From an uncultured Eudoraea sp. (GTDB lineage Bacteria > Bacteroidota > Bacteroidia > Flavobacteriales > Flavobacteriaceae), in assembly GCF_947258925.1 (NCBI RefSeq), contig NZ_CAMYKG010000019.1, positions 1-64,000 on the forward strand: 64,000 bases of DNA. Direction: 5' to 3'. Shown piece after piece: positions 47,690-56,506 of this stretch (the stretch's first letter is position 1; every line of letters starts with the position of its first letter). Under the pieces are notes generated by a model. The model was not told the origin of the DNA. It saw only the letters and a program-made list of their open reading frames with translations, and searched no databases. Both the position numbers and the translations under genes were made by a program.

Positions 47690-48505
47690 ATGGATAAATT
47701 ACCAAAAATAGCATTGCCCGCAGTGTTTATAATAATTTTAGTGATTATAATTATTTCTAAATCAGCAGTTACTATTGGCTCTGGTGAAGCAGGCGTTCTT
47801 TATCGAACTTTTGGAAATGGCGTGGTGACTGATGAACCTCCTCTCAATGAGGGCTTTCATATTGTCGCACCCTGGAATAAAGTTTTTATTTATGAAGTTA
47901 GGCAACAGGAAGTTTTCGAAAAGATGAAAGTACTTTCCAGTAATGGATTGGACATTCAGCTTGACGCATCTGCCTGGTTTCAACCTGATTATGCTGCTCT
48001 AGGCAAATTACATCAGGAAAAAAGTGAGCAATATAAAGAGCGTATTCTTCTTCCTGCAATTAGATCGGCTGCTCGTAGTGTAGTGGGGAGATATACCCCT
48101 GAACAATTATACTCCAGTAAACGAGACGCTATTCAGGTTGAGATTTTTGAGGAAACTAAGAATATAGTTCAGGATCAGTATATACAATTAAATGAAATTC
48201 TTATTCGTGATGTTACCCTACCTCCAACAATTAAAGAGGCCATCGAAAGAAAACTAAAACAGGAACAGGAATCCCTGGAATATGAATTTCGTTTAGTTAC
48301 GGCGGCAAAAGAGGCAGAAAAAGTACGTATTGAAGCACAGGGGAAGGCCGATGCCAATAAAATACTAAGCGCCTCATTAACCGATAAAATCTTACAGGAT
48401 AAGGGTATCGATGCCACTTTAAAAATGGCAGAGTCTCCTAATTCCAAAGTAGTGGTTATAGGATCCGGAGGAGATGGGTTACCGCTTATTTTAGGAAATA
48501 ATTAA
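47690..48505 (+). CDS. Prohibitin/SPFH family protein
   Basis: GEAGVLYRTFGNGVVTDEPPLNEGFHIVAPWNKVFIYEVRQQEV; RSVVGRYTPEQLYSSKRDAIQVEI. Confidence 0.92.
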   Translation: MDKLPKIALPAVFIIILVIIIISKSAVTIGSGEAGVLYRTFGNGVVTDEPPLNEGFHIVAPWNKVFIYEVRQQEVFEKMKVLSSNGLDIQLDASAWFQPDYAALGKLHQEKSEQYKERILLPAIRSAARSVVGRYTPEQLYSSKRDAIQVEIFEETKNIVQDQYIQLNEILIRDVTLPPTIKEAIERKLKQEQESLEYEFRLVTAAKEAEKVRIEAQGKADANKILSASLTDKILQDKGIDATLKMAESPNSKVVVIGSGGDGLPLILGNN

Positions 48506-48512
48506 TTGTAAT

Positions 48513-48520
48513 TAATTTTG
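48513..48520 (+). promoter_or_regulatory. -7 box candidate TAATTTTG for the his operon leader
   Basis: Exact TAnnTTTG 33 nt before the leader-peptide ATG. Alternative: TTG(48518-48520)-N18-TAATTTTA(48539-48546). Confidence 0.4.
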
Positions 48521-48553
48521 AGAACTAAAAATTAATTCTAATTTTACATTCTA

Positions 48554-48607
48554 ATGAAAATTCAAAATACACATCATCATTTGTACACTTGCGCTCAGGC
48601 GAGGTAG
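48554..48607 (+). CDS. hisL: Putative his operon leader peptide MKIQNTHHHLYTCAQAR
   Basis: 17-codon ORF with three consecutive CAT (His) codons, 31 nt upstream of an intrinsic terminator that precedes hisG. Confidence 0.85.
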   Translation: MKIQNTHHHLYTCAQAR

Positions 48608-48637
48608 AAATGTATTGTTGTATTTCAAAATATATCT

Positions 48638-48672
48638 AACCCGTTTGAGCAATCAAGCGGGTTTTGCTTTTA
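48638..48672 (+). terminator. his attenuator terminator hairpin
   Basis: AACCCGTTTGA-GCAA-TCAAGCGGGTT (11-bp stem with one G-U, GNRA loop) then TTGCTTTTAT. Confidence 0.85.
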
Positions 48673-48707
48673 TATCTTTTTGATTGTTGAACATGAAAAA
48701 ATGACTA

Positions 48708-49565
48708 ATGGAGAAATTAAAAATAGCTATACAAAAGTCTGGAAGGCTTAATCAGGATTCTATAAAAATTCTAAAGGATTGTGGTATTTCTATTGATAAT
48801 GGCAAGGACCAGTTGAAAGCTTCGGCCCGGAATTTTCCAATGGAAATCTTTTATTTGAGAAATGGGGATATTCCACAGTATCTGAAAGACGGTGTTGTTG
48901 ATATTGCTATTATTGGAGAAAATGTACTTGAAGAAAAAGGTGGCAACATCGCTGTAGCGGAAAAACTGGGGTTTTCCAGATGCAGGGTTTCTCTGGCCAT
49001 TCCCAGGGCCAGTGCGTATAATGGAATCAAAGATTTAGCAGGAAAACAAATTGCAACCTCTTATCCAAATACGCTCAATGCATACCTTTCGAACAAAGGT
49101 GTTCAGGCAGATCTTCACATAATCAATGGCTCAGTGGAAATTGCACCCAACATTGGACTGGCAGACGCTATCTGTGATATTGTATCCAGCGGGAGTACCT
49201 TGTTTAAGAATAACCTTAAGGAAGTAGAGGTGATGATGAATAGTGAAGCGGTTTTGGCTGTTTCACCCAGGATTAAAAGTAATCAGAATGAAATTCTGGA
49301 AGATCTGATCTTTAGAATAAAGTCTGTGTTGGCAGGAAGGCAATCCAAATATATTTTGATGAATGCCCCAAATGACAAGCTTGATGCGATTATTAAATTG
49401 TTGCCGGGCATGCGGAGTCCGACTGTACTGCCTTTGGCTGAAGAAGGATGGAGTTCAGTGCATACGGTAATAAATAAGGATAAATTCTGGGAAGTGATAA
49501 ATGAGTTGAAACTCGCTGGCGCCGAAGGAATATTAGTGTGTCCGATAGAGAAAATGGTTCTATGA
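48708..49565 (+). CDS. hisG: ATP phosphoribosyltransferase (long form)
   Basis: KIAIQKSGRLNQDSIKILKDCGI; VDIAIIGENVLEEK; GLADAICDIVSSGSTL. Confidence 0.95.
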   Translation: MEKLKIAIQKSGRLNQDSIKILKDCGISIDNGKDQLKASARNFPMEIFYLRNGDIPQYLKDGVVDIAIIGENVLEEKGGNIAVAEKLGFSRCRVSLAIPRASAYNGIKDLAGKQIATSYPNTLNAYLSNKGVQADLHIINGSVEIAPNIGLADAICDIVSSGSTLFKNNLKEVEVMMNSEAVLAVSPRIKSNQNEILEDLIFRIKSVLAGRQSKYILMNAPNDKLDAIIKLLPGMRSPTVLPLAEEGWSSVHTVINKDKFWEVINELKLAGAEGILVCPIEKMVL

Positions 49566-50857
49566 AAACAATATTGAATCCAAAGAAGACAGAGTGGTCA
49601 GCTATTTTACGTCGGCCTACTCAATCAGTTTCAGAAATAGAGGAATTGGTAATAGAAATCTTCAATGAAGTGAAGATGGAAGGCGATGAAACCCTAAAGA
49701 AATACACCAAACAATTTGATGGAGTTAAAATAATTGACTTAAAAGTAGCCCAGGCCGAATTTGATGAGGCCGAAACCCTGGTATCGTCAGAGTTAAAAAA
49801 TGCGATTCAAACAGCTGCATCCAATATTAAGAAATTTCATGAAGCGCAGAAAACATCGAAAATTGAAATTGAAACGACGCCTGGTGTAATATGTTGGCAG
49901 GAAAAAAGGCCTATAGAAAAAGTTGGCCTTTATATCCCCGGGGGGACAGCCCCTTTGTTTTCAACTATTTTAATGCTTGCCATCCCTGCGAAACTGGCGG
50001 GCTGTACCGAGATCGTTTTATGTACCCCACCAGATAAAACCGGTAAAATAAACCCGGCAATCCTATACACCGCAAAACTTTGTGGTGTCTCCCAGGTTTA
50101 TAAAGTTGGCGGTATACAGGCTATAGGGGCCATGACATTTGGAACGGAAAGTATTTCGAAGGTTTATAAGATATTTGGACCGGGAAATCAATATGTCACA
50201 GTGGCCAAACAAATAGCCACCAAATTTGGTGTAGCCATTGATATGCCTGCGGGTCCAAGTGAACTTTTGGTAGTTGCTGATGAATCTGCTAACCCGGCTT
50301 TTGTAGCCTCAGATCTGCTGAGCCAGGCAGAACATGGAGCAGATAGTCAGGTAATATTGGTGTCAACTTCCAAATCGCTCTTAGAAGAAGTGGAATTAGA
50401 ATTGCAAAATCAAATCACCAATTTACCGAGGGAAATCATTGCCAGGAAGGCATTAGGTAATAGTAAGTTAATCTTTGTGGAAAATGATAAAATTGCCATT
50501 GAATTGATAAATGAATATGGCCCTGAACATTTTATTGTTTGTTGTAAAGACGAAGAATATTATATAAGAAATGTGGTGAATGCGGGTTCTGTTTTTCTGG
50601 GGAAATTTACTCCGGAAAGTGCTGGTGATTATGCATCGGGAACAAATCACACCTTACCCACAAATGGTTATGCGAAACAATTCAGTGGTGTTAACCTGGA
50701 TAGTTTTATGAAAAGCATTACGTTTCAAAGAATATCAGAAACAGGTATACTGAACATTGGAAATGCCATAGAAGTTTTGGCAGAAGCAGAAGGCCTTATG
50801 GCTCATAAAAAAGCCGTCACGCTTCGTTTACAAAGCTTAAAAGGAAATAATAAATAG
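49562..50857 (+). CDS. hisD: Histidinol dehydrogenase
   Basis: EKVGLYIPGGTAPLFSTILMLAIPAKLAGC; KIFGPGNQYVTVAKQ; DMPAGPSELLVVADE; ATGA overlap with hisG. Confidence 0.96.
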   Translation: MKTILNPKKTEWSAILRRPTQSVSEIEELVIEIFNEVKMEGDETLKKYTKQFDGVKIIDLKVAQAEFDEAETLVSSELKNAIQTAASNIKKFHEAQKTSKIEIETTPGVICWQEKRPIEKVGLYIPGGTAPLFSTILMLAIPAKLAGCTEIVLCTPPDKTGKINPAILYTAKLCGVSQVYKVGGIQAIGAMTFGTESISKVYKIFGPGNQYVTVAKQIATKFGVAIDMPAGPSELLVVADESANPAFVASDLLSQAEHGADSQVILVSTSKSLLEEVELELQNQITNLPREIIARKALGNSKLIFVENDKIAIELINEYGPEHFIVCCKDEEYYIRNVVNAGSVFLGKFTPESAGDYASGTNHTLPTNGYAKQFSGVNLDSFMKSITFQRISETGILNIGNAIEVLAEAEGLMAHKKAVTLRLQSLKGNNK

Positions 50858-50880
50858 CGGATGTACAGAGGATAAAGATT

Positions 50881-51921
50881 ATGACTTTTAACTTAAATAA
50901 TCTGGTGAGAGAAAATGTGAGGAAGTTAAAGCCTTACTCTTCCGCGCGGGATGAATACATTGCAGATGGTTCCAAAAAGATATTTTTGGATGCCAATGAG
51001 AGCCCATATGTTAATGGAATCAATAGGTATCCCGATCCTCAACAGAGAAGTTTAAAATCTGTTCTGGCTAAAAGATATTCGCTCACAGAAGCAAACATTC
51101 TTCTGGGTAATGGGAGTGACGAAATTCTGGATCTGATCTTCCGGGCATTTTGTGAACCCCTGGAAGATAATATTATAACCGTGCCACCTACCTATGGAAT
51201 GTATAAGGTATTGGCAGGAATTAATGCTATTGAGAACAGGGAGGTCTTATTGACTTTGGATTTTGAATTGGATGTAGAACAAATTTTGGAATCTATTGAT
51301 GCAAATACCAAGCTCGTTTTCTTGTGCTCACCAAATAATCCAACAGGAAATAGTTTTTCTATCGCTCATATCACCCAACTCCTAAATAATTTCCACGGCC
51401 TGGTGGTGGTAGATGAGGCGTATATAGATTTTTCAGGAAAGAAAAGTTGGTTACCTAAATTAAATGAACATGAAAACCTCATTGTTACCAGGACATTTTC
51501 AAAAGCATACGGGATGGCTGGGTTGCGCCTGGGAGTATGTTATGCATCAGAAGGTGTTATAACAGTACTAAACCGGATAAAACCCCCTTATAACGTAAAT
51601 GAGCTCACTCAAAAAAGGGCCTTTAGCATGATTAAGGACCTTGGCTTAGTGGAAGAGCAGATAAGTGAAATCTTAAAACAAAGAAAAGACTTGGTGGCAC
51701 AATTAGGTCAGATAGGTTTTATAGAAAAAATATACCCCACAGATGCCAATTTCATATTGGTTAAAGTGGATAATGCGGACGAAAGGTACCGTCAGATATT
51801 AGATCGTGGGGTGGTTGTAAGGAACAGATCTGCCCAACCCCTTTGCGAGAATACCCTAAGATTTACAGTGGGCAATCCACAAGAGAACAAAACCTTACTC
51901 GAAGTATTAAAATCCTTGTAA
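50881..51921 (+). CDS. hisC: Histidinol-phosphate aminotransferase
   Basis: [48 protein letters not shown]. Confidence 0.95.
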
Positions 51922-53072
51922 TGGAAACAAAACCGACAAAGAAAAAGGTCTTATTCATAGATCGCGACGGAACACTAATAGTGGAGCCGGCTGATGAACA
52001 AATAGATAGTTTTGAAAAAATTTCGTTCTATCCTGAAGTTTTTGGGTATTTGGGCAGAATAGCTAAAGAGCTGGACTATGAATTAGTAATGGTAACTAAT
52101 CAGGATGGTCTGGGATCGGACACATTTCCTGAAACGACGTTTTGGCCCGTACATGATTTTATTCTAAAATGTTTTGAAAGCGAGGGGGTAAATTTTTCAG
52201 AAGTCCTGATAGACCGGACTTTCCCTCATGAAAAGGCAGATACCCGAAAACCGGGAACCGGCTTGTTGAAAAAATATTTCAATGAAGAATATGATCTTCA
52301 AAGTTCCTTTGTTATCGGGGATCGCCTTACAGATATGGAGCTAGCAAAAAACCTGGGTTCTGAGGGTATTTTTATAAATACGCAAACCAATTTGGGTACA
52401 AATGAAATCACCCTAAATCAAAAAGAATTGCAGCAGGTAATTGCGCTGGAGACTGCAAATTGGAGTGCTATTTACAATTTTTTAAAACTCGGAAAACGTA
52501 GGGCGGAGATTTCCAGAAACACCAAAGAAACTGAGATCGATATTAAACTAAATCTGGATGGTACCGGTGTGAGTAGAATTTCTACAGGCATTGCATTCTT
52601 TGATCATATGCTGGACCAACTTTCACGTCATGGAAATATTGACCTGGATATTAACGTAAGGGGCGATTTGGAGGTAGATGAGCACCATACTATAGAAGAT
52701 ACGGCAATTGCATTGGGTGAAGCATTTCATAAGGCTCTTGGTGATAAATTAGGAATGGAACGATATGGGTTTTGTTTACCCATGGATGACTGTTTGTCCC
52801 AGGTAGCTATAGACTTTGGTGGTCGTTCCTGGTTGGTTTGGGAAGCGGAATTTAATCGCGAAATGATTGGAAAGATGCCAACTGAAATGTTTTATCATTT
52901 TTTTAAATCATTTTCGGATGGCGCTAAGGCCAATTTGAATATAAAGGCAGAAGGAACAAATGAGCATCATAAAATTGAGGCTATTTTTAAGGCATTTGCA
53001 AAAGCGATCAAAATGGCCCTGAAGCGCGATGCGGAAAAAATGTTATTGCCTTCAACAAAAGGAATGCTCTAA
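51921..53072 (+). CDS. hisB: Bifunctional histidinol-phosphatase / imidazoleglycerol-phosphate dehydratase
   Basis: [34 protein letters not shown] and [16 protein letters not shown]; start at METKPTKKK (51921). Confidence 0.96.
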
Positions 53073-53112
53073 AGAATAATTAAGAATACTATTTACCAAA
53101 GTTTTTAAGCAA

Positions 53113-53694
53113 ATGAAATTGGTTATCGTAAATTATGGTGCAGGCAATATTCAAAGCATAAAGTTTGCTTTTAAACGACTTGGATATGACGCGGTGTTAA
53201 GTGATAAGGCCGGGGAGATTCAAAATGCCGATCGGGTAATATTTCCGGGAGTCGGAGAGGCCAGTAGCGCCATGAACAAGTTGATGGCCAGTGGATTAGA
53301 TCAAATTATTCCAAATTTGAAACAACCTGTATTGGGGATATGCCTGGGCATGCAACTAATGTGTCACTCAACAGAAGAGGGAAACACGCTGGGGATGGGT
53401 ATATTTAATACCGATGTTATAAAGTTCAGTAAGAAAGTTAAAGTACCTCAAATTGGATGGAATCAAATAACCAATCTTAAATCCAACTTGTTTAAAGACG
53501 TAAAGGAAAATGATCATATTTACCTGGTACATAGTTATTATGCCCCAATTTGTTCTGAGACCATTGCCATCTCAAATTATGAAATGCCTTATAGCAGTGC
53601 ATTACAAAAGAATAATTTTTATGGGGTACAGTTTCACCCTGAAAAAAGCAGTAAAGTTGGAGCCAGGATTTTAAGAAACTTTCTGGAATTATAA
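53113..53694 (+). CDS. hisH: Imidazole glycerol phosphate synthase subunit HisH
   Basis: NYGAGNIQSIKFAFKRLG, GICLGMQLM, GVQFHPEKSS. Confidence 0.96.
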   Translation: MKLVIVNYGAGNIQSIKFAFKRLGYDAVLSDKAGEIQNADRVIFPGVGEASSAMNKLMASGLDQIIPNLKQPVLGICLGMQLMCHSTEEGNTLGMGIFNTDVIKFSKKVKVPQIGWNQITNLKSNLFKDVKENDHIYLVHSYYAPICSETIAISNYEMPYSSALQKNNFYGVQFHPEKSSKVGARILRNFLEL

Positions 53695-53823
53695 AACGAT
53701 ATAAATGAACTCGAAGCCGAGTAATAGTGTAATAAAAATGGGGTATCGGTTTGACCCCAATGTTAACAAATAGCAATTGCGAAAGACATTTAATTTTCAA
53801 ATTAGAGCTAGAAAAAAGGAGCA

Positions 53824-54600
53824 ATGAGAATAATACCAGCCATAGATATTATAGATGGAAAGTGTGTAAGGCTATCACAGGGAGATTATAATACAAAAAA
53901 GGTATATAATGAAAACCCTTTGGAGGTAGCCGTCGAATTTGAGGCACATGGTATCCAGTATATACACCTGGTAGATCTTGATGGTGCTAAGGCAAAGCAT
54001 ATCATTAATTATAAGATTTTAGAAAGTATTGCCGCCAAAACAAACTTAAAAATCGATTTTGGAGGTGGGTTGAAATCCAATGAAGATTTGAAAATAGCTT
54101 TTGATTGCGGTGCGGATCAAATAACGGGTGGTAGTATCGCAATAAACGACCGGGAAACCTTTTTGGGGTGGATTGAAACCTATGGAGCTGAAAGGATCAT
54201 CCTTGGAGCCGATGTCAAAGAAGAAAGGATCGCAATTACAGGATGGCAGCAAGAATCAGATAAAAAATTAATACCATTTGTAAAGGACTATCAACAAAAA
54301 GGGATTAGCTATGTCATTTGCACGGATATCAAAAAGGATGGGATGCTTAAAGGTCCGTCCATAGCATTATACAAGCGACTTCTGACAGCAACGGAAACTA
54401 ATAAGACCGTAGTCAGCATGAGTGGTGTTGAAGATGTTAAAGTTCCGGGTATTAACCTTATAGCCAGTGGGGGCATAGCCAACTATGAAGATTTACATGC
54501 ATTACAGGAAATTGGATGTGAAGGTGCAATACTTGGGAAGGCTATTTATGAAAATAAAATTAGTTTAAAGCAATTAGAACATTTTATCTTAACATCATGA
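53824..54600 (+). CDS. hisA: ProFAR isomerase
   Basis: [47 protein letters not shown]. Confidence 0.96.
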
Positions 54601-55118
54601 ATGAGGTTCAGGACAAATGGATGATAGAGTTCCTGGAGAATTCCAGTTTTAGATTGGAAGAAAGTACCAGAATGATTAAAATTAGTTTGGCAGCTGTTAA
54701 AGAAGAGAACGTTTGGAAAAAACCAAATGAATCATCCAATAGTATTGGTAATCAAATACTGCATATTTGTGGTAATATGACACAATATATTATCGCATCC
54801 TTAGGTAATCTAGATGATTTTAGAAAGCGGGATGAAGAATTTTCTACGACTGCCGGATATTCCAAAAAGGAACTTATTCTTAAACTTGAGGATACTGTTG
54901 ATAAAGCTAAATCGGTACTAAAAAATTGCAATAGCGAGCAGTTATTGAAGAAGCGTGTAGTTCAGGGATTCAACCTTTCCGGAATCGGCATTGTAATGCA
55001 TGCAGTTGAGCACTATTCTTATCATACGGGTCAGGTTGCATTTTGGACTAAACTGATGGTAAATAAGGACCTGGGGTTTTATAATGGAAGAGATCTGAAT
55101 ATTAAAAACAAACAATAG
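54597..55118 (+). CDS. DinB/DfsB superfamily protein
   Basis: Helical; His triad NQILHICGN ... [23 protein letters not shown] overlap with the hisA stop. Confidence 0.8.
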
Positions 55119-55121
55119 AGA

Positions 55122-55877
55122 ATGTTGACTAAAAGAATAATCCCTTGTTTAGATATTAAGGACGGACGAACCGTAAAGGGAATTAATTTTCTTGATTTGA
55201 GGGATGCGGGCGATCCTGTGGAACTCGCAGAAGCATATGCAAACGAAGGTGCCGATGAATTGGTTTTTCTCGATATTTCAGCAACCGAGGAAAGACGCAA
55301 GACCCTTGCTAACCTGGTAAAGCGGGTCGCCGAAAAAGTCAATATCCCTTTTACCGTTGGCGGGGGGATTTCTTCGGTGGAAGATGTAGATATTCTCCTT
55401 CACAATGGGGCAGATAAGGTGTCTATAAATTCTTCAGCCGTAAAAAACCCTGATCTGATTAATGAGCTGGTGGCTAAGTTTGGCTCCCAATGTATTGTCG
55501 TAGCCATTGATGCAAAAAGGATTGATGGGATGTGGAAAGTGCACCTGGTTGGAGGTAAAGTACCAACCGATTTGGAGTTGTTTCAGTGGGCAAAAGAAGT
55601 TGAGGAAAGAGGAGCAGGGGAGATATTGTTTACATCCATGGACCATGATGGAACAAAAAATGGTTTTGCCAATGAGACCCTGGCAAGGCTCTCAACAGAA
55701 CTTAATATTCCAATAATTGCATCGGGTGGAGCAGGAAACATGGAGCATTTTATTGATACTTTTAATGAAGGCAAGGCCGATGCAGCATTGGCTGCCAGTG
55801 TTTTTCATTTTAAGGAAATGGAAATTAGAGATTTGAAAAAAAAGTTACAGGATCACGGTATTCCTGTAAGGTTATAG
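55122..55877 (+). CDS. hisF: Imidazole glycerol phosphate synthase subunit HisF
   Basis: [45 protein letters not shown]. Confidence 0.96.
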
Positions 55878-55909
55878 TTGAATTTTACCCTGATAAAAAG
55901 ACACATACA

Positions 55910-56506
55910 ATGGAAGTAGCATTTGATAAAAGTAAAGACGGTCTTGTACCGGCAATTATCCAGGATTATACAACAAAAAATGTACTTATGCTGGGTTATA
56001 TGAGTGAAGAAGCATTGTCCCGGACATTAGAAACCCGAAAGGTTACTTTTTTTAGCAGGAGTAAAAACCGATTATGGACCAAAGGAGAAGAAAGCGGTAA
56101 TTATTTAAACCTAGTGGATGTTGATCTTGATTGTGACAAAGATACGCTATTGATCACTGCTAATCCTGAAGGGCCGGTATGTCATAAGGGAAGCGATACC
56201 TGCTGGAATAAGAAGAATGACCAAAATTTTGGTTTTCTAACCCAGCTGGAAGCTATAATATTAAATAGAAAAGAGAGTCTGGACAATGACCAAAGCTATG
56301 TTAACTCTTTATTTAAAAAAGGAATTAACAAAATTGCCCAGAAAGTAGGTGAAGAAGCCGTGGAGACTGTTATTGAAGCTATGGATAATAATGATCAGCT
56401 TTTCCTCCAGGAAAGTGCCGACTTACTTTTTCATTACCTTATTTTGTTACAGGCCAAAGGCTTTCAGCTTAATGATGTTGTAGATGTTCTAAAGAGCAGG
56501 CACTAA
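55910..56506 (+). CDS. hisIE: Bifunctional phosphoribosyl-AMP cyclohydrolase / phosphoribosyl-ATP pyrophosphatase
   Basis: VLMLGYMSEEALSRTLETRKVTFFSRSKNRLWTKGEESGN; C-terminal KVGEEAVETVIEA. Confidence 0.96.
   Translation: MEVAFDKSKDGLVPAIIQDYTTKNVLMLGYMSEEALSRTLETRKVTFFSRSKNRLWTKGEESGNYLNLVDVDLDCDKDTLLITANPEGPVCHKGSDTCWNKKNDQNFGFLTQLEAIILNRKESLDNDQSYVNSLFKKGINKIAQKVGEEAVETVIEAMDNNDQLFLQESADLLFHYLILLQAKGFQLNDVVDVLKSRH

Follow-up and report, generated by a model that had tools for sequence, protein, structure and literature searches.

The his operon in the window (the whole 64,000-nt stretch of DNA that was analysed, contig NZ_CAMYKG010000019.1 of assembly GCF_947258925.1, genus Eudoraea, family Flavobacteriaceae) is preceded by a leader that we consider, with a probability of about 0.93, to be a ribosome-mediated (leader-peptide) transcription attenuator of the classical kind. 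Comparison and folding support its leader ORF, its terminator, its antiterminator, a codon-specific effect of the ribosome and a selected pairing between the terminator and a strand further downstream, which we call element 5. We regard the locus as a mostly expected member of a known attenuator type, with one selected extra pairing that is worth testing.

Leader peptide, terminator and antiterminator

The nearest named relatives of the window's hisG belong to Eudoraea, and nine further genomes of this genus were available for comparison. All features described here lie on the forward strand, in the order leader ORF MKIQNTHHHLYTCAQAR*, 11-bp terminator, hisG. The operon had been delimited as 48708-56506 in the sequence-only reading, and matches to NCBIfam and Pfam families confirmed this span with the gene order hisG-D-C-B-H-A-(DUF1572)-F-IE. 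hisG (48708-49565), which encodes ATP phosphoribosyltransferase and is the first gene of the regulated operon, matched TIGR00070 and TIGR03455 above cut-off; hisD, hisC, hisB, hisH, hisA, a DUF1572/DinB-like gene, hisF and hisIE occupy 49565-56506. The DUF1572/DinB-like gene (PF07609, PF05163; 54597-55118) sits in the interval between hisA and hisF and matched no NCBIfam family. At 48513-48520, the sequence TAATTTTG is a weak candidate for a promoter -7 box, possibly of the type TAnnTTTG, which we take to be the Bacteroidota consensus; relatives within the genus show TAAGTTTTG, one base longer, at this position.

The leader ORF was read directly at 48554-48607, with three CAT (His) codons at 48572-48580, just as it had been described from the window alone. 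We compared the regions upstream of hisG in 99 genomes of Flavobacteriaceae, roughly one for each genus. In 95 of them a short ORF with HH or a longer His run occupied this position, and most of the genomes lacking it showed spaced His residues. The short ORF with codons for the amino acid of the pathway that is predicted for an attenuator is therefore kept in the family far beyond chance. The typical peptide is MxxxQLHHHHFHTCTQAS or a relative of the window peptide. A covariance model of the leader, built from 40 leaders, found one strong copy (E ~1e-20), at hisG, in nearly every close relative possessing this gene. A second strong copy (E = 1.7e-13) was found at the contig end of one Eudoraea genome (G319:C176:1-96), possibly a duplication or an assembly fragment.

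The leader RNA (48500-48710) folded at -45.8 kcal/mol, compared with -31.9 +/- 3.8 kcal/mol for shuffled sequences (z = -3.67; none of 200 shuffles was as low). Thirty nucleotides after the ORF comes the hairpin that the sequence-only reading had pointed out (48638-48663, 11 bp, GCAA loop, followed by a T-rich run), and this is the only terminator-like site found ahead of hisG in the window. It consists of the 5' arm (region 3, AACCCGUUUGA, 48638-48648), the loop (48649-48652), the 3' arm (region 4, UCAAGCGGGUU, 48653-48663) and the T-rich tract of the intrinsic terminator (48662-48671). A terminator scan located a site between the leader and the first gene in all 99 Flavobacteriaceae hisG leaders, the match at L037 being a poor hairpin that was excluded from later analyses. 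Among 40 aligned sequences the 3:4 helix was 99.3% paired, with double changes at 4 pairs. The loop had been classed as a GNRA loop, but GNRA is not a conserved motif here; the loop bases change together with the leader and element 5 bases that pair with them. In the minimum free energy folds of the leader and of the ribosome-free full leader, codons before and at the His run pair with the segment after the stop codon in a '1:2' stem-loop (48565-48625) that contains region 2; similar long-range complementarity was recognised by eye in relatives.

Region 2, the antiterminator strand GCUCAGGCGAGG (48593-48604), is formed by the codons A-Q-A-R (GCU CAG GCG AGG) of the leader peptide. It forms a duplex of -15.2 kcal/mol with CCCGUUUGAGC (48640-48650), which takes in the 5' arm of the terminator and the first bases of its loop. 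In 40 aligned leaders this 2:3 helix was 94.4% paired, as opposed to 20-48% when the strands were slid against each other, and its extension GGCGAG:CCCGUUU is conserved. The helix is so conserved that few of its pairs vary, and the covariation rests on those few. Next to the helix, a variable leader codon base (column 43) and the first variable base of the loop (column 113) occur as G-C, A-U and U-A; in 128 loci they were paired in 52%, compared with 37 +/- 4% after permutation. Isolated cases of covariation elsewhere are UCGGG with CCUGA at L025 and GGUG with CAUC at L058. Covariation across the leaders, which had been proposed as a check on the structure, was thus seen as double changes in the 3:4 helix and as compensatory variation of the leader-loop column pair (40 sequences). 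The peptide tail (xQAR, xQAS or xQAK) is most probably so conserved because its codons form the 2:3 helix with the terminator arm, selection acting on the RNA rather than on the peptide.

A different antiterminator had been drawn at first, in which CUUG-C-GCUCA (48588-48597) pairs with UGAGC-AAU-CAAG (48646-48657) across the loop and into the 3' arm. This pairing is feasible in the window (-8.2 kcal/mol), and its GCUCA:UGAGC half belongs to the true 2:3 helix and is retained. The CUUG:CAAG half, however, was only 66% paired in 40 sequences and completely paired in 37 of 196 loci, and was rejected; with the 2:3 helix better by 7 kcal/mol, it is very improbable that the pairing as first drawn is the antiterminator.

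Ribosome position and the proposed switch

We modelled the stalling of the ribosome by placing it at each codon in turn, hiding 14 nt counted from the start of the A-site codon, and compared the stability of the terminator with that of the best structure lacking it. In the window the modelled probability of the terminator was 0.51, 0.28 and 0.13 with the ribosome at the three His codons and 0.99 from the next codon to the stop codon. The shape of this profile was kept for footprints of 11-16 nt, with a shift of about one codon: the minimum moved to the next codon with 11 or 12 nt and to the second His codon with 16 nt. When 97 loci were modelled, the terminator was weakest with the ribosome at a His codon in 84 of them and at a Phe codon in 10; its mean advantage was 16.7 kcal/mol for a ribosome close to the stop codon and dropped to 7.6 kcal/mol at the third His codon. 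Folding, the stall model and the alignment all point to an antiterminator that excludes the terminator and would be freed by stalling at the regulatory codons. The switch by stalling at His codons, already suggested by the sequence-only reading, is strongly supported as a model by family-wide conservation, covariation and these calculations.

A switch working purely at equilibrium fits the window but fails in most relatives, in which the modelled terminator was still favoured with the ribosome at the His codons; we therefore used free-energy differences instead. In these relatives the switch must accordingly be kinetic. In known attenuators, the choice between terminator and antiterminator is made in time.

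Ribosome stalling and readthrough in cells would, according to the model, proceed as follows. With ample His-tRNA the ribosome would reach the leader stop codon and cover region 2, so that arm 3 pairs with arm 4 and transcription ends ahead of hisG. With scarce His-tRNA it would wait at the CAT codons, leaving region 2 free to pair with arm 3 before arm 4 exists, and RNA polymerase would read through into hisG. The fold of a ribosome-free leader is also predicted to favour the terminator. Most members of the family have in addition element 5, transcribed after the terminator and located just upstream of hisG, which may likewise pair with arm 3 and the loop. It would act after readthrough, competing for arm 3, on the translation of hisG or on the RNA.

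Element 5, a downstream partner of the terminator arm and loop

In the window, element 5 is GAUUGUUGAAC (48682-48692), about 15 nt upstream of hisG and complementary to the 5' arm and loop of the terminator (pairing with 48642-48654). The control element had been taken to comprise the leader and the terminator; both belong to it, but this extent was too short, and the element appears to reach downstream to element 5. The copy in the window, GATTGTTGAAC, is a weak example, imperfectly paired, with a duplex of -10.4 kcal/mol and a shuffle p of 0.02. In many relatives the interval between the terminator and hisG contains strands such as GATTTACTCAAAC or GATTGTTTCAAAC, whose partners in the arm and loop are GTTTGAGTAAATC and GTTTGAGACAATC. 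The complementarity is typically 11-14 bp long, the exposed loop included; element 5 is missing at some loci.

AT-rich intergenic DNA yields some pairing of this sort, and the window copy reaches only p = 0.02, so we weighed the alternative that element 5 is a product of chance or base composition. Of 87 loci, 46 had a duplex more stable than every one of 200 shuffles, and 60 reached p <=0.05. Over 186 loci the native duplexes averaged -12.3 kcal/mol, compared with -9.2 +/- 0.15 kcal/mol when the arms were permuted. When the strand was located by its arm half only, the loop half was 75% paired versus 55 +/- 2% after permutation, and all six loop-half bases were paired in 36 loci versus at most 15 in 1000 permutations. 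Pairing of the loop bases stood at 93%, compared with 47 +/- 6.5% in permuted sets. Within Eudoraea, the change of the loop from GCAA to GAAA is accompanied by a change of element 5 from GATTGC to GATTTC.

Among 86 non-overlapping pairs of closest relatives with different loops, each locus's own element 5 paired better than the swapped one in 71 and worse in 5. Control regions gave about even results for the hisG coding sequence and for the reversed and complemented strands, 36 to 17 for the leader and 48 to 15 for the reverse complement. The upstream control region was biased the opposite way (14 to 47) for an unexplained cause, so that small effects in this test are not to be trusted; mean effects in the biased controls were <=1 kcal/mol, compared with 5.6 kcal/mol for element 5. 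The pheA attenuators tested in the same family have no element 5, which also argues against chance or composition, an explanation that we consider extremely improbable. Element 5 covaries with the terminator loop, and the comparison points to selection on their pairing. Such selection on the sequence of a terminator loop is not required by the textbook model; it suggests that control has a second layer.

Pairing within the terminator is, in cis, mostly 7-10 kcal/mol more favourable than pairing with element 5; element 5 would therefore need a kinetic advantage, an action in trans or a role in RNA processing. A kinetic route may be available while the 2:3 helix stands, with the loop free as a toehold. 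A pseudoknot in which the lower stem of the terminator persists and the whole upper arm pairs with element 5 is geometrically unlikely, since we reasoned that only 0-1 linking bases would be left. In most strong-pairing loci element 5 ends 12-17 nt upstream of hisG; where repeat-like palindromes intervene, the spacing is 32-48 nt and element 5 is retained. Short palindromes of this position (CCTGCATTCGCAGG, CCCGCTTTCTCGGG and others), just upstream of hisG and after element 5, were observed in several genera, at L023, L029, L039, L053 and L071. These insertions weaken the idea that element 5 blocks the hisG start in all genera. Our leading guess is that element 5 would brake the translation of hisG once the stall is relieved.

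More broadly, the switch may be a three-way one, with regions 2, 4 and 5 in competition for the same arm and loop and the attenuator also controlling hisG translation or acting in trans through the terminated RNA. We put this forward tentatively, short of an even chance; if true, a single element would combine transcriptional with post-transcriptional control. An action in trans, with the loop of the short terminated leader RNA binding element 5 of the readthrough hisG mRNA and reducing the synthesis of HisG in the manner of a small regulatory RNA that the attenuator itself makes, would agree with the inclusion of the exposed loop in the complementarity, with the near-constant distance to the hisG start in most loci and with the strength of the terminator in cis. 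Covariation, however, cannot separate cis from trans, and several genera keep element 5 despite the repeats that move it away from the start codon; we find this reading unlikely. Retention of the pairing far from the start codon would instead suit a role in the processing or stability of the RNA: arm 3 and element 5 of the readthrough mRNA might, for instance, form a double-stranded site for cleavage, and element 5 would then be no regulator of translation. This reading leaves the usual nearness of element 5 to the start codon unexplained, and we consider it just as doubtful as the action in trans.

Known his leaders and other attenuators

Attenuation of the his operon by a leader peptide is textbook knowledge in enteric bacteria, in which the hisL peptide contains seven His codons. 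The flavobacterial leader shares with the enteric attenuator (hisL; Rfam His_leader RF00514) a leader peptide with His codons, a terminator ahead of hisG, an alternative antiterminator and control of the whole operon. It differs in having 3-4 His codons, a single 2:3 antiterminator drawn from the last codons of the peptide, and element 5 downstream. RF00514 gave no match to the window leader, either at the gathering score or at E values up to 10, and no Rfam match to a T-box riboswitch was found in the window; Rfam families and a T-box were thus ruled out as the identity of the leader.

The sequence-only reading had called such attenuation much less documented in Bacteroidetes, which is fair as far as it goes. 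A transcriptome study of Flavobacterium psychrophilum published in 2021, however, reports that hisG is preceded by a structured 5' element, found also in other genera and lacking an Rfam hit, together with strong clues for leader-peptide attenuation ahead of amino-acid operons (PMC9723704). Because of that report, on the same gene and in the same family, the core attenuator described here is not new. Where its main text deals with the hisG element, it gives no mechanism, pairing or downstream strand, unlike the scheme above. A comparative study by Lopatovskaya et al. in 2010 (cited in PMC4833913) may also cover Bacteroidota. No description of element 5 was found in the literature text searched, which is not proof of its being undescribed. 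The present scheme fixes the pairing and the spread of his attenuation for a large phylum in which regulation of this kind is little documented in the literature searched.

In other Bacteroidota families, surveyed by eye, many hisG genes are preceded by a His-rich ORF and a terminator whose sequences are quite different; judging from these, attenuation of this kind seems to be ancient in the phylum. At L204, in genome G270, which is assigned to another family (f33) and class, the hisG leader, MNLLQLHHHRHHHTCSQARW, is of the flavobacterial type and is followed by the downstream strand TTTACTCAG. The his operon may have been transferred horizontally there, or the contig may be misplaced.

The pheA and thrA leaders of Flavobacteriaceae resemble that of his in having, ahead of the operon, a short ORF rich in the amino acid of the pathway, and pheA shares the terminator as well; at the ilvD loci nothing interpretable was found. 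In many members of the family (L255, L258, L260, L261, L273, L277 and L281) the region upstream of pheA encodes a Phe-rich leader peptide, such as MTKRFFFNGFYFYFFFERGTGLL, with a terminator after it. With no element 5 at the pheA loci tested, unlike at hisG, we rejected the idea that the attenuators of this family generally have one. At nearly all thrA loci the terminator scan gave no convincing terminator. Upstream of thrA (L316, L319, L321, L330, L333, L334 and L339) there are short ORFs rich in Thr and Ile, with the conserved tail TPLG or TTLWGC/Y, which end about 75-85 nt upstream of the gene.
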